NCBI GenBank assembly: GCA_002030045.1 | Contig: LQBI01000020.1 | Span: 1 to 6,284, forward strand | DNA: 6,284 nt | DNA from: Candidatus Aegiribacteria sp. MLS_C | GTDB lineage: Bacteria > Fermentibacterota > Fermentibacteria > Fermentibacterales > JCC-6 | Direction: 5' to 3' | Part shown: piece after piece, positions 1,043 to 6,176 of the stretch | Layout: the number at the start of each line of letters is the position of its first letter | How positions within the stretch are numbered: the first letter of the stretch is position 1 | Translations under genes and position numbers: made by a program | Notes under the pieces: generated by a model | Told to the model about the DNA's origin: nothing | Seen by the model: the letters and a program-made list of their open reading frames with translations, nothing else | Database searches by the model: none

Positions 1043-2923
1043 GTGGTGGAGGTTACTCTGGAAACGGCTCCAAGGATCTTACAGACTGTCTGGCTGGTCA
1101 CAAGGATAGCCGCAGTATGGTTCGCCTTTCATGGCATGGGAGTACTGGCGAGGGCCAGGCTGCTTCGAGGCAGGCACCTTGAAGGATTACCATCACTGGT
1201 TCTTGGGATCATGGGTCTGGTCGTCCTCACTCTGGTGCTGTCGCTGATGCAGCTACTGACTAGATGGTTCCTTCCCTTCGTCATCATGAGTGCAGCAGCC
1301 TATGGTGTTCTCGACCTTCATCGCAGGCGCCGTTATGCCTCAGTTTCCGGTCAGCTTCGGTCATGGCTGGCAGTACCGGCGGGCCTGACGCTCGCCGTTC
1401 TTCTACTCTCGGACATCTTCCATGCGGCAATCCCGCATGGAATGGTGGATCCCCTCATCACCTACGCCGTACAGCCCGACAGGTGGCTGGACGCCGGTGG
1501 GATGTATTTCCTGAGCGAGACCAAGTTCTCTCTGTTTCCTCTAATAGGTGAGATGCTGGCAGTCTGGCCAGCTTCTCTTTCGGAAGGCATGGTCGATCAG
1601 CTCATTATCCTTCAGCTCTTCCAGTTCAGTCTCTTGACCGGTTCCTTTCTCATTGCGGTAAGGTTCATGGGACTTGGTTGGAAAGGGGCTGCAACCGTTC
1701 TTCTTCTGTGTCTTTCTTCACCGATCCTTGTGAAATGGGGTTCCTGGGCGAAGAATGATATGACGGCACTGTTCATGTCCACGGTTTCCCTCTCTTTTTT
1801 CTTCAGGTTCTGGTACTCCGAAAGAAACACCGGAATACCGCTGATCGCCTGGTTCCTGATGGGACTTGCCATTTCTGTGAAGCTTACAGCGGCATTTGCC
1901 ATGACCGCAGCGATACCCGCAGTATTCATTTGCTCTGGAACAGGGAAGTGGAAGCAGCTTCTCATGGGTCTCGGGGCTATGGCGCTTGTCCCAATGGTCT
2001 TCGCCATCAGGAACCTCATGATCACCGGAGAGCCGTTCTACCCCTGGAACTTCCCTTTCTTTTCACCGAACGAGAGCTGGAACATCGAGTCGATACAGGT
2101 GCTGGATTCCATAAAGGAACGCGGGAGTGCCTCTTTACTTGACAATCTGGTGCTGCTCATCCGGTCATGGGGCGGAATAGGTATCATCTTCCTGGCAGGT
2201 GTGCTGGCAGCGGTCAGGATCGGCTGGAGAAGAGTCCTTCCACCGTTCATCACCGTTGTCATCTACGCCGTAGTCAGCTGTCTCGTCTTCGATCCGATAT
2301 CCTGGGGAGAGAAGTACGCCATAATACTGCTGCCCTGCATGGCAGCCGTCGGGACATTCTATCTGAGAAAGTGGACGAGAGTGGTACTGCTGATAGTGAC
2401 GGTTCTTGTCATTATGACTTCGTCCTTTTCGGACAGGGCAGTCTTCATCTGGAACTTCTTCCGGGACCGCAACCCCCTGCAGTTCCAGGGGCTGGATACT
2501 CCTCCCGCCATGCCCCTTCATCTGTGGGCGAACGAAAACCTCCCGCAAGGTTCAAGACTCCTGTCGATGTGGAGATACGAGAGGTATTTCTCCGACCATG
2601 TGATACTGGTGCTCCAGAACCATCCTGATGGAGTTGAACTGCTGCTTGAGAACTCGCTGGCGGAGGAGTTCGAAATACTGGACAGGATGGGAGTGGACTA
2701 CCTCTATTTCCATGCTGAAGACCCGATGCCGGGGGATCTTGAGTCACGGATCAGGCTGTTCTCGGCCATAGGCGATGAAGGAAGGATCAGACCGGTGGTG
2801 GAGGTTTCCGGATACCTGCTCTGCAGGATAGTGGACCCTGACAGTGAAGACCGTGTGCACCGGGACGTTGATCCTGAGTATGATCCGGTTGGGAGGGAGA
2901 GCCTGTCTTGTCCTTCAGATTGA
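1043..2923 (+). CDS. GT-C-type (ArnT/PMT-like) integral membrane glycosyltransferase
   Basis: The 626-residue multi-pass membrane protein probably transfers a sugar from a polyprenyl-phosphate donor to an acceptor on the outer face of the inner membrane. Hydrophobic segments lie near residues 12-35, 50-72, 74-92, 108-128, 185-207, 215-232, 238-256, 264-297, 305-322, 375-393, 398-416 and 424-460. The loop after the fourth segment holds D136 in VDPLITYAVQPDRWLDAGG and E170 in FPLIGEML, the usual places for GT-C catalytic acids. Further family-like motifs are WAKNDM (235-240), GLAISVKLTA (274-283) and RNLMITGEPFYPW (323-335). A soluble C-terminal part (about 485-600) contains LWANENLPQGSRLL and MGVDYLYF, as in related proteins. 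A stop lies directly upstream at 1040, so the start must be GTG 1043, GTG 1046 or a later codon; none has a good ribosome binding site. The 3' end overlaps the next gene by 16 nt. The family assignment is strong, but the exact sugar and acceptor cannot be read. Confidence 0.85.
   Translation: MVEVTLETAPRILQTVWLVTRIAAVWFAFHGMGVLARARLLRGRHLEGLPSLVLGIMGLVVLTLVLSLMQLLTRWFLPFVIMSAAAYGVLDLHRRRRYASVSGQLRSWLAVPAGLTLAVLLLSDIFHAAIPHGMVDPLITYAVQPDRWLDAGGMYFLSETKFSLFPLIGEMLAVWPASLSEGMVDQLIILQLFQFSLLTGSFLIAVRFMGLGWKGAATVLLLCLSSPILVKWGSWAKNDMTALFMSTVSLSFFFRFWYSERNTGIPLIAWFLMGLAISVKLTAAFAMTAAIPAVFICSGTGKWKQLLMGLGAMALVPMVFAIRNLMITGEPFYPWNFPFFSPNESWNIESIQVLDSIKERGSASLLDNLVLLIRSWGGIGIIFLAGVLAAVRIGWRRVLPPFITVVIYAVVSCLVFDPISWGEKYAIILLPCMAAVGTFYLRKWTRVVLLIVTVLVIMTSSFSDRAVFIWNFFRDRNPLQFQGLDTPPAMPLHLWANENLPQGSRLLSMWRYERYFSDHVILVLQNHPDGVELLLENSLAEEFEILDRMGVDYLYFHAEDPMPGDLESRIRLFSAIGDEGRIRPVVEVSGYLLCRIVDPDSEDRVHRDVDPEYDPVGRESLSCPSD
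2892..2900 (+). promoter_or_regulatory. Ribosome binding site for the pyruvyl transferase-FrhB gene, inside the upstream gene
   Basis: A purine-rich GGAGGGAGA stretch lies 7-11 nt before the TTG at 2908. It is the strongest Shine-Dalgarno-like sequence of the cluster and decides the TTG start. It is still inside the end of the glycosyltransferase gene, consistent with coupled translation. Confidence 0.6.
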
Positions 2924-5205
2924 GTTTCATAGGAGCCACATACTCCGGCAACAAGGGAGCCGCCGGTATGCTGCGTGCAGCTGTAGGCTCGCTAATGGAA
3001 CGGATGCCGGATGATACGGAGTATTCGGTACTGTCACTCTACCCTTCCAGGGACAGGGACCGTAAGCAGTCGGGTGTTCGCATTGTTCCCTGCAGACTGT
3101 TACCTCACCTTCTCCTGCTTTCGTCGCTGGCCCTTCTCTACAGGCTGTTCTCCTGGTTCGGTCCGGTGCGCAGGGTCCTGGCCGTGTTCCCGCCGCTGAA
3201 GGCGCTTGTCGGATCCGATGTCCTCCTGGACCTCTCGGGAATTTCCTTCGTTGACGGGAGGACCGCCACCCTCTTCTACAACGCGGCGTGCATTCTTCCC
3301 GCCATACTCGTCGGCACTCCTGTAATCAAACTCTCTCAGGCGCTGGGGCCCTTCCGCCGCTTCCCCAACAGGCAGCTCGCATCAATACTCCTGAGGAGGA
3401 TGGAGCACATTTACGCTAGGGGCGCCGGGACCGCTGCCAACCTCCGGGAACTGGGTCTCGAGAACTGGAGTCCGGCACATGACCTGGCCTTTGCTCTCGG
3501 ACCGGTGGAAACCATTCCCTCGGAAGACCCTCCTGTGATCGGCGTGCTTCCAAGCCGTGTGATGCAGCAGTGCTGTAAAAACAGCGGGATCGAATACCTA
3601 CGGGTAATGGCCGGAGCCCTGAACGCCTACCTCGAAAAAGACGACAGAGCCCGCGTGGTGGTCATGGCCCACAGCAATCTGGGACCGGACACGGAATCGA
3701 GGAACAACGACTACAGGGTTTGCAGGGAACTTCACGGAATGCTGCCGCCGGAGAGGACTGCACTTCTGGTGGAGGACCTTGGCCCGGAGGAACTCAGGGC
3801 CGAGATCGGCGGATGCACCGTCTGCATCGCGTCCAGGTTCCACGGGATGATCTCGGCGCTCTGCACCGGTACGCCTGTTCTGGTCACCGCCTGGTCACAC
3901 AAGTACAGGGAGGTGCTGGAGTCGTTCGAATGTTCGGAATGGGTGGTGGACATGCCGGGGATGACCCAGGAGAACCTTCTCGAGATGCTTCGACGAATCA
4001 TGGAGAGAAGGGTAACCGTAAGAGAATCCATCCTGCGGCATCTGCCCGCCGTCCGCGAATCCGCCGAGGACCAGCTCAGGGAGGTGTCCCGCCTCATCAT
4101 GAGCCCGGTCCCGGAGGTTCGGGGAATTGGAAGGACGGCCAGGAGACTCCACGGGGAGTTCTACGCCGGGGTCTTTCGAAGCGGTTGCATCGGGTATTCC
4201 ATAGCTCCTTCGCTCCGTAGGAACTGCGCCTCGGGAGGTCTTGTCACTTCACTGCTGGCGGGGAGGATGGAGCGAGGCATCACCAGCGGAGCCGTGGTGG
4301 CAGGCATGGAATACGGAGAGGACGGTCCGCAACCCGTTTCCCGTCTTGCCACCAGCAGGGAGGAGCTGGAGGGCCTGGCAGGGAGCGTATACACCGATTT
4401 CGACCATATCGGAGGTATAAGAAGACTGCTTCATGAGCATGAAGGGACCTACGACCTGGTTGTACTCCCATGCCAGGCCAGAGCCCTGAGGGCGCTGATG
4501 GAGAAGGATGCCCTCCTGAGATCCAGGACCGGTCTCCTGATAGGTCTATGGTGCGGTCATGCCACAGGTCCGGGTCTCCTGAGGGACATACTCCGAAGAT
4601 GGGGTGTGGATGGTGCTGATGTGAAGAGGTTCAGATACAGGAAGGGGCACTGGAGGGGCCGCAGCGTCGTGGAACTGGAGGACGGTTCGCGGATCGAGAG
4701 GAGTTTCAGCAGGAACTACGGATTGTTCCAGAACCTCTACGTGGACTGCATGCCCAGATGTCTCTCGTGCACCGATCATTTCGCATCTCAGTCCGATCTC
4801 AGTTTCGGTGACTGCTGGATCAGGTCCGAGAAACGCTCCAACATGAAGAAGACCATGGCGGTAGCTTTGACCCCGGAGGGTGAGGCAGTCCTTGAGAGGC
4901 TCGGCGAGGACCCGGGTATCGTGATCTCCGGAGTGGATCCGGCCATGGCGGTCCAGGCACAGAAGAGGGCGGTTGTATGGCATACCTACGGATGCGCGGG
5001 GAGGTCCTCGCTTTCCCGGCTGTTCGGTATGGATGTATCCTGCGGGCTGGACATACGTCCGAGGATCAACGACCTAGTCTCCGCTTTCATCATACTCTCC
5101 ACCGTGAAACTCTTCTCGGGTCCCCTGCGGAAGTTCCTCCTGGGCCTTCCATGGTGGGTTCACTATCCGGCCATGGCATTTCAGAAACTGATGCTCAACA
5201 GGTGA
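2908..5205 (+). CDS. Fusion protein: polysaccharide pyruvyl transferase domain + FrhB-like (F420 hydrogenase/dehydrogenase beta subunit) domain
   Basis: Residues about 5-395 match the polysaccharide pyruvyl transferase family (CsaB/WcaK-like), which adds ketal pyruvate from phosphoenolpyruvate to sugars. Visible are the N-terminal GATYSGNKGAAGML, VLLDLSGISFVD (105-116), KLSQALGPF (141-149), SRFHGM (309-314) with TGTPVLVTAWSHKY after it. After a linker (about 396-420), residues 421-690 match FrhB N- and C-terminal domains: NCASGGLVTSLL (439-450), VVLPCQARAL (518-527), WCGHATG (548-554), RFRYRKGHWRG (574-584) and CMPRCLSC (614-621) leading to DLSFGDCW (630-637). FrhB relatives are flavin/Fe-S reductases; known members include F420-hydrogenase FrhB and chlorophyll-pathway reductases (HCAR, BciB). 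The ferredoxin-like CxxCxxC section that often precedes FrhB domains in glycan clusters is absent. A hydrophobic stretch near 722-757 may touch the membrane. Both domains look intact and in one frame. The TTG start follows a good ribosome binding site and overlaps the upstream gene by 16 nt. Substrates are unknown. Confidence 0.85.
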   Translation: MSFRLSFIGATYSGNKGAAGMLRAAVGSLMERMPDDTEYSVLSLYPSRDRDRKQSGVRIVPCRLLPHLLLLSSLALLYRLFSWFGPVRRVLAVFPPLKALVGSDVLLDLSGISFVDGRTATLFYNAACILPAILVGTPVIKLSQALGPFRRFPNRQLASILLRRMEHIYARGAGTAANLRELGLENWSPAHDLAFALGPVETIPSEDPPVIGVLPSRVMQQCCKNSGIEYLRVMAGALNAYLEKDDRARVVVMAHSNLGPDTESRNNDYRVCRELHGMLPPERTALLVEDLGPEELRAEIGGCTVCIASRFHGMISALCTGTPVLVTAWSHKYREVLESFECSEWVVDMPGMTQENLLEMLRRIMERRVTVRESILRHLPAVRESAEDQLREVSRLIMSPVPEVRGIGRTARRLHGEFYAGVFRSGCIGYSIAPSLRRNCASGGLVTSLLAGRMERGITSGAVVAGMEYGEDGPQPVSRLATSREELEGLAGSVYTDFDHIGGIRRLLHEHEGTYDLVVLPCQARALRALMEKDALLRSRTGLLIGLWCGHATGPGLLRDILRRWGVDGADVKRFRYRKGHWRGRSVVELEDGSRIERSFSRNYGLFQNLYVDCMPRCLSCTDHFASQSDLSFGDCWIRSEKRSNMKKTMAVALTPEGEAVLERLGEDPGIVISGVDPAMAVQAQKRAVVWHTYGCAGRSSLSRLFGMDVSCGLDIRPRINDLVSAFIILSTVKLFSGPLRKFLLGLPWWVHYPAMAFQKLMLNR

Positions 5206-6176
5206 TGATGCAGGTGGTCCGGCGTTCGGTTGATGCTCTCATGAAGAACAGGTTCGTGGGTATCATCATCTTTCTGGCAGTACTCGGGGCTGTGACCCTG
5301 TTTGCAGTAAGGTCGATATCCTCGGTTGACATCAACCGCATGAAGGACATCGGACCGGAGTCGTTCCCGCTTCCTCTGGCGCTTGTGATACTGGCGTACC
5401 TGAACAGGTTCCTCTTCTGGAACAGGCTTGCCGCAGCCTTCCATCTCAGGGCCAGGTATACAGTGGCAGGCAGAGCCTTCTTCTATTCCATACTCGGTCG
5501 CTACGTACCGGGGAAGGCCGGGCTGTTCCTTCTGAGGTTAAGGGCCTACAAGGGCAAGTCGAGAAAAAAGGTAGGTGCCGCGATGATAGCCGAATACATC
5601 GCAACGATACTGGCTGCCTGCATACTTGTTCTTGCAGGTTCGATACTCGCTTCCGGCTCCAATCCCCTCCTTACCAGGTGGATACCTCTGGGAGTCGCGG
5701 TTCTCTCGGTCCTGATGCTGCACCCCCGCCTGCTCAGACGCATGGTCAATTCCCTTATCGGTCTCACCGGCCGCAGCCATCTGGTGGAGTTCCCGACCGC
5801 CGGCAACGTGGCGGTGGTCACCGCCGGATACGGCCTCACGGGGCTTCTTCATGGCATGGCTCTGTTCATGATAATGAGAATGTTCGGGGATATGCCGTTC
5901 GAACTGTACCCTGTTGTTACAGGGGCTTATTATACGGCGGGTCTCATAGGCATGGTCGCTTTCTTCGCCCCTGGAGGGCTTGGCGTCAGGGAGGGGGTGC
6001 TGTTCCTTCTCCTGCCGGCCTATTCGGACACCGGGGCCGTGGTACTGTCGGCCGCCCTGATGAGGATACTAACGCTGGCAGCGGAGCTTCTTCTTGCCGG
6101 TTTCTTCGCGCTTCTTTCCGGAAGGTCTGCCGGTGATCTGAATGGAACGGCTCTTCCATCGGATACTGTAGATTGA
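5205..6176 (+). CDS. UPF0104 / LPG_synthase_TM-type (flippase-like) integral membrane protein
   Basis: The 323-residue protein is mostly membrane-embedded, with hydrophobic segments near residues 17-37, 55-73, 126-148, 158-173, 202-222, 234-254 and 276-305. Two signatures place it in the family that includes the transmembrane part of MprF: ILGRYVPGKAGLF (96-108) and FFAPGGLGVREGVL (253-266). The cytosolic aminoacyl-transfer domain of full MprF is missing, as is usual for the roughly 300-residue members found in glycan clusters. These are thought to move or handle lipid-linked substrates; the substrate here is not known. I chose ATG 5205, which shares its A with the preceding TGA stop (TGATG), a typical coupled junction. 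ATG 5208 and ATG 5241 are alternatives, and no start has a strong ribosome binding site. The open frame extends upstream to 4977, but that part overlaps the fusion gene and reads as an out-of-frame shadow. Confidence 0.82.
   Translation: MMQVVRRSVDALMKNRFVGIIIFLAVLGAVTLFAVRSISSVDINRMKDIGPESFPLPLALVILAYLNRFLFWNRLAAAFHLRARYTVAGRAFFYSILGRYVPGKAGLFLLRLRAYKGKSRKKVGAAMIAEYIATILAACILVLAGSILASGSNPLLTRWIPLGVAVLSVLMLHPRLLRRMVNSLIGLTGRSHLVEFPTAGNVAVVTAGYGLTGLLHGMALFMIMRMFGDMPFELYPVVTGAYYTAGLIGMVAFFAPGGLGVREGVLFLLLPAYSDTGAVVLSAALMRILTLAAELLLAGFFALLSGRSAGDLNGTALPSDTVD

Follow-up and report, generated by a model that had tools for sequence, protein, structure and literature searches.

The window, that is, the whole stretch of DNA that was analysed, is a complete contig of 6284 bp. 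It carries a gene in which a pyruvyl transferase domain (PS_pyruv_trans, here PST) is joined to an FrhB-type domain in a single chain (Table 1). The frame runs for 765 codons from the TTG codon to the stop codon, and the amino-terminus, counted from this TTG, has the same length as that of close relatives with an ATG start. The gene overlaps with both of its neighbours on the same strand, a multi-pass membrane protein gene on the 5' side and an LPG_synthase_TM-type gene on the 3' side, the latter overlap being contained in the sequence TGATG (5203–5207). On the reverse strand, nucleotides 23–912 hold the remnant of another membrane protein gene, spread over three frames and with about 195 residues missing, of which intact relatives are found in loci L040 (3465–5093) and L039 (8419–10014). 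The contig is short and has a GC content of 56%, compared to 61–65% in the other stretches of the genome that were examined. Two other short contigs of the window's genome (G000), C21 (L067) and C25 (L068), share 87% identity over 4.86 kb, and both contain murB, a likeness that suggests that a sister strain or species is mixed into the assembly, or that there has been a duplication.

Table 1. Features of the window, with nucleotide positions.
Feature	Position	Strand	Remarks
Multi-pass membrane protein, probable GT-C-type glycosyltransferase	1043..2923	+	Weak NF047510 (LIC_10190) match; end overlaps fusion start
Ribosome-binding-site-like sequence GGGAGGGAG	2891..2899	+	8 nt 5' of the TTG start
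PST-FrhB fusion gene	2908..5205	+	Single unbroken frame, 765 amino acids, TTG start
PS_pyruv_trans domain, residues 15–331	2950..3900	+	Pfam; GT-B fold in predicted model
Putative PEP-site motif, R310 and H312 (SRFHGM), K332 (WSHKY)	3835..3903	+	R171 at 3418–3420; by motif order versus CsaB
Interdomain linker, about residues 401–428	4108..4191	+	Without Fer4 cysteines
FrhB_FdhB_N domain, residues 429–496	4192..4395	+	Pfam
FrhB_FdhB_C domain, residues 517–668	4456..4911	+	Pfam; FrhB fold in domain model
Conserved cysteines C522, C549, C614, C618, C621	4471..4770	+	Alignment of fusions
LPG_synthase_TM-type membrane protein	5205..6176	+	Pfam; start overlaps fusion stop

An earlier note on this DNA had described one uninterrupted frame encoding both a pyruvyl transferase and an FrhB part devoid of ferredoxin, and a Pfam scan agrees with this description on each point. 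PS_pyruv_trans (E-value 3.6e-25), FrhB_FdhB_C (4.4e-22) and FrhB_FdhB_N (4.9e-11) all exceed their gathering scores. For the first of these (PF04230), the profile is matched over its full length (1–280 of 280) with a score of 89.9 bits, against a gathering cut-off of 25.3 bits. Membership of the FrhB_FdhB family (PF04422 plus PF04432) is indicated by both domains scoring above the cut-off and by the FrhB fold of the predicted model. Pfam finds no Fer4 match in the window protein, nor in five more fusions of the same type that were scanned, all with the same domain order. Against the NCBIfam equivalogs for CsaB and WcaK, the window protein remains under the cut-offs, with 63 versus 213 bits and 28 versus 727 bits, respectively.

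The full-length AlphaFold model, built from four sequences, is reliable over no more than the first 400 residues, the FrhB half being poor. The modelled first 400 residues match GT-B enzymes, with a Z-score of about 25 to UDP-GlcNAc 2-epimerases. Pvg1p, a pyruvyl transferase of solved structure, is absent from the best 50 matches listed in the fold searches, and a sequence search of the PDB with the amino-terminal half found no relative. When folded alone, the FrhB half reaches a pLDDT of 74 and a pTM of 0.78; its Foldseek matches at E below 0.001 number 20, and each is a relative of FrhB, including HCAR.

In the PST half, all 14 fusions share R310, H312 and K332, and all 12 full-length ones share R171. 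Residues R306, H308, K328 and R148 of CsaB have been assigned to PEP binding (PMC10435577). When the fusion is matched to CsaB by motif order, rather than by direct alignment, the four invariant residues correspond to these in the order given, and they would form the putative PEP-binding set of two arginines, a histidine and a lysine of the PS_pyruv_trans family. In the FrhB half, eight cysteines had been put forward as iron-sulphur ligands. Five of them, C522, C549, C614, C618 and C621, are invariant in the 14 fusions; the other three, C427 (present in the window protein only), C440 and C636, vary. Standalone relatives likewise keep C522, C549, C618 and C621 without exception, and these four line up with cysteines in FrhB proteins of solved structure, which makes them the likely ligands of one proposed [4Fe-4S] cluster; C614 is specific to the PST-FrhB fusion type. 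An SGG motif is kept in the FrhB half of all fusions.

An architecture search establishes that the fusion is genuine rather than the product of a sequence error, and that it recurs in other genomes: the order PST-FrhB is present in 12 complete fusions, the window included, and in two more that are truncated by the ends of their contigs. These come from two phyla, the window's own (Fermentibacterota) and Krumholzibacteriota. In the window's genus, the fusion is also found in G003, G008 and G014 (48–49% identity), and it is present in another family of the same order (G037 and G038). Two loci from genome records named Krumholzibacteriota (L033 and L034) encode it, and a survey of 80 genomes of that phylum adds G400, G402, G403, G404 and G411, plus the truncated G413. 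Among the 385 genomes sampled around the window, the PST-FrhB type is limited to the window's own phylum; in viral contigs, relatives of the fusion were looked for and none was found. In a tree of 12 proteins, a single branch (support 100/99) separates the two phyla, a split that would fit either one ancient origin or one ancient transfer. In four close pairs, dN/dS is about 0.14–0.17 in both halves, and both halves are under purifying selection.

Only one relative, that of G035 (L041, 9167–11492), has its halves in different frames. Its linker is scrambled and read through more than one frame, a pattern as would be expected of indels or decay. This copy was considered as a clean two-gene form and rejected, given the different frames, the disturbed linker and its origin in a metagenome-assembled genome that is 71% complete.

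Fusions of the PST and FrhB families come in three domain orders: PST-FrhB, Fer4-FrhB-PST (L047, L048, L050 and L051) and PST-Fer4-FrhB (L049), the latter two as identified by Pfam. The layout of L049 contradicts the idea in the earlier note that PST simply takes the place of Fer4, since in this protein both are present; the loss of Fer4 is no simple replacement. The families are also found as separate genes, overlapping on Sinorhizobium meliloti pSymB, where PST precedes FrhB, and neighbouring in Loktanella. Separate neighbours occur in at least eight of the sampled genomes (G010, G025, G035, G065, G132, G208, G272 and G307), a lower bound obtained by comparing contig coordinates by eye. A PST gene is present in 156 of the 385 sampled genomes, that is, in fewer than half, so that the two genes would seldom lie within a few kilobases of one another by chance. 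From these gene arrangements, the coupling of the two families is recurrent, and the repetition of their linkage is the main argument that the two halves perform coupled steps. The other fusion layouts and the many adjacent pairs strengthen the previous suggestion that both halves act on one substrate, although the action on a common substrate is itself something we infer. The window type is a form without ferredoxin of an already known pairing, one that occurs widely as adjacent genes and also in other fusions.

An LPG_synthase_TM-type protein is encoded directly downstream of the fusion, on the same strand, in 15 of 15 loci, including that of the broken G035 copy. In MprF, the LPG_synthase_TM region is known to carry lipid across the membrane, and by analogy the substrate of the fusion is probably a lipid-linked sugar. 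In the Krumholzibacteriota loci (L033, L034 and L052–L055), a reading of the sequences shows that the fusion and the LPG_synthase_TM gene are often located beside a GT2 gene resembling dolichyl-phosphate mannose synthase and beside genes of membrane proteins that resemble GT-C transferases.

We propose, with a probability of roughly 0.4, that the fusion is a two-step enzyme that modifies a cell-surface glycan by forming a lactyl (1-carboxyethyl) ether on one of its sugars. In ketal pyruvyl transferases, C2 of PEP joins one hydroxyl and a second hydroxyl closes the ring. In the fusion, the PST domain would use PEP to place an enolpyruvyl group on a hydroxyl of the sugar, with no ketal closure. 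The FrhB domain, carrying a flavin and a single [4Fe-4S] cluster, would then convert this enol ether to a lactyl ether by reduction, just as MurB follows MurA. Enolpyruvyl transfer followed by reduction has its precedent in these two enzymes of peptidoglycan synthesis. Since the fusion lacks the ferredoxin (Fer4) that FrhB partners usually bring along, its electrons would have to be supplied by an external donor, and the co-conserved LPG_synthase_TM protein may flip or otherwise handle the lipid-linked product. The three fusion layouts and the many adjacent pairs are as expected of consecutive steps. In a more specific and more tentative form, the proposal is that the fusion could be a one-protein counterpart of MurA plus MurB, assembled from unrelated parts, which makes lactyl ethers on lipid-linked surface sugars. 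A role as a replacement of MurB itself was also considered and rejected, a genuine MurB being present in the genome.

Lactyl ethers occur in surface glycans (PMC10609480). In a survey of Klebsiella, types K8, K22, K37 and K66 have pyruvyltransferase genes without having pyruvylated capsules, and one cps locus contains a gene annotated as "coenzyme F420 hydrogenase" (PMC4616057). A title cited in PMC3857182 places 4-O-[(S)-1-carboxyethyl]-glucuronic acid in the K22 capsule, and a title cited in PMC5643014 reports two genes for glucolactilic acid in Shigella boydii 17. The literature on lactyl-ether antigens fits the proposed synthesis without proving it, and hints at a possible link to FrhB genes.

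The main rival, which we regard as somewhat less likely, is that the two halves carry out separate modifications of one glycan. PST would then make an ordinary pyruvyl ketal and FrhB would reduce something else, on the glycan, its nucleotide sugar or the polyprenyl carrier, the fusion merely keeping the two halves together. HCAR and other FrhB relatives do act as reductases on varied organic substrates, HCAR being a significant fold match of this half, and both families also occur alone. The characterised PS_pyruv_trans enzymes form ketals, not enol ethers (PMC6801904, PMC10435577), which favours this rival and counts against the synthesis of a lactyl ether. However, the three fused layouts and the repeated adjacency suit consecutive chemistry better. 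It is improbable that the FrhB half works off the glycan, controlling or supporting PST (for instance by sensing redox state), or that it has no catalytic activity: the domain through which electrons usually enter is indeed missing, but every fusion retains the SGG motif and the four cysteines common to FrhB proteins of solved structure, and the dN/dS of this half, given above, also counts against such a role. Much less probable still is an F420-dependent oxidoreductase like FrhB proper. Although FrhB and FdhB turn up as matches in Pfam and in the PDB, which would favour this reading, the score of the window protein is far under the cut-off of the frhB equivalog TIGR03289 (39 versus 331 bits), and the cofD profile (TIGR01819) has no match in 19 genomes of the window's genus, 10 of them nearly complete, so that F420 is an unlikely cofactor. 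That sequencing or assembly joined two neighbouring genes has practically no chance of being correct: separate adjacent PST and FrhB genes do exist in other bacteria and the G035 halves lie in two frames, but independent genomes refute it, with the read-through architecture in 12 complete proteins of two phyla, each on its own side of a well-supported branch.

If lactyl-ether synthesis is indeed the function of the fusion, the same function would apply to the many neighbouring PS_pyruv_trans/FrhB pairs in capsule and O-antigen loci. The FrhB-type proteins of capsule and exopolysaccharide clusters carry the misleading name "F420 hydrogenase"; the conserved fusion to PST points to their probable target and presents a candidate enzyme pair for lactyl-ether sugars, in the form of one protein in which the idea becomes testable.

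Compared with CsaB, WcaK and Pvg1p (PF04230), the PST half belongs to the same Pfam family, has the same GT-B fold in the predicted model and keeps the SRFH and HKY motifs of the PEP site, but the protein is far under the equivalog cut-offs of CsaB and WcaK and its PST is joined to an FrhB domain. With the Fer4-FrhB proteins of polysaccharide clusters it shares the pairing with PS_pyruv_trans, seen in S. meliloti pSymB, Loktanella and the fusions L047–L051; in the window type, PST comes first and there is no Fer4, whereas Fer4 is present in L047–L051. The FrhB half has the fold and the aligned cysteines of the solved structures of FrhB, HCAR and F420-dependent sulfite reductase, while it differs from them in its partner domain, in having no ferredoxin module and in belonging to a genus without the F420 pathway marker. 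The likeness to MurA and MurB is hypothetical and would be one of logic, enolpyruvyl transfer followed by flavin-dependent reduction to a lactyl ether, the protein families of the fusion being unrelated to them. Finally, a likeness of product is proposed with the lactyl-ether O- and K-antigen loci of Shigella boydii 17 and Klebsiella K22; in K22, a pyruvyltransferase gene accompanies a capsule that is not pyruvylated.
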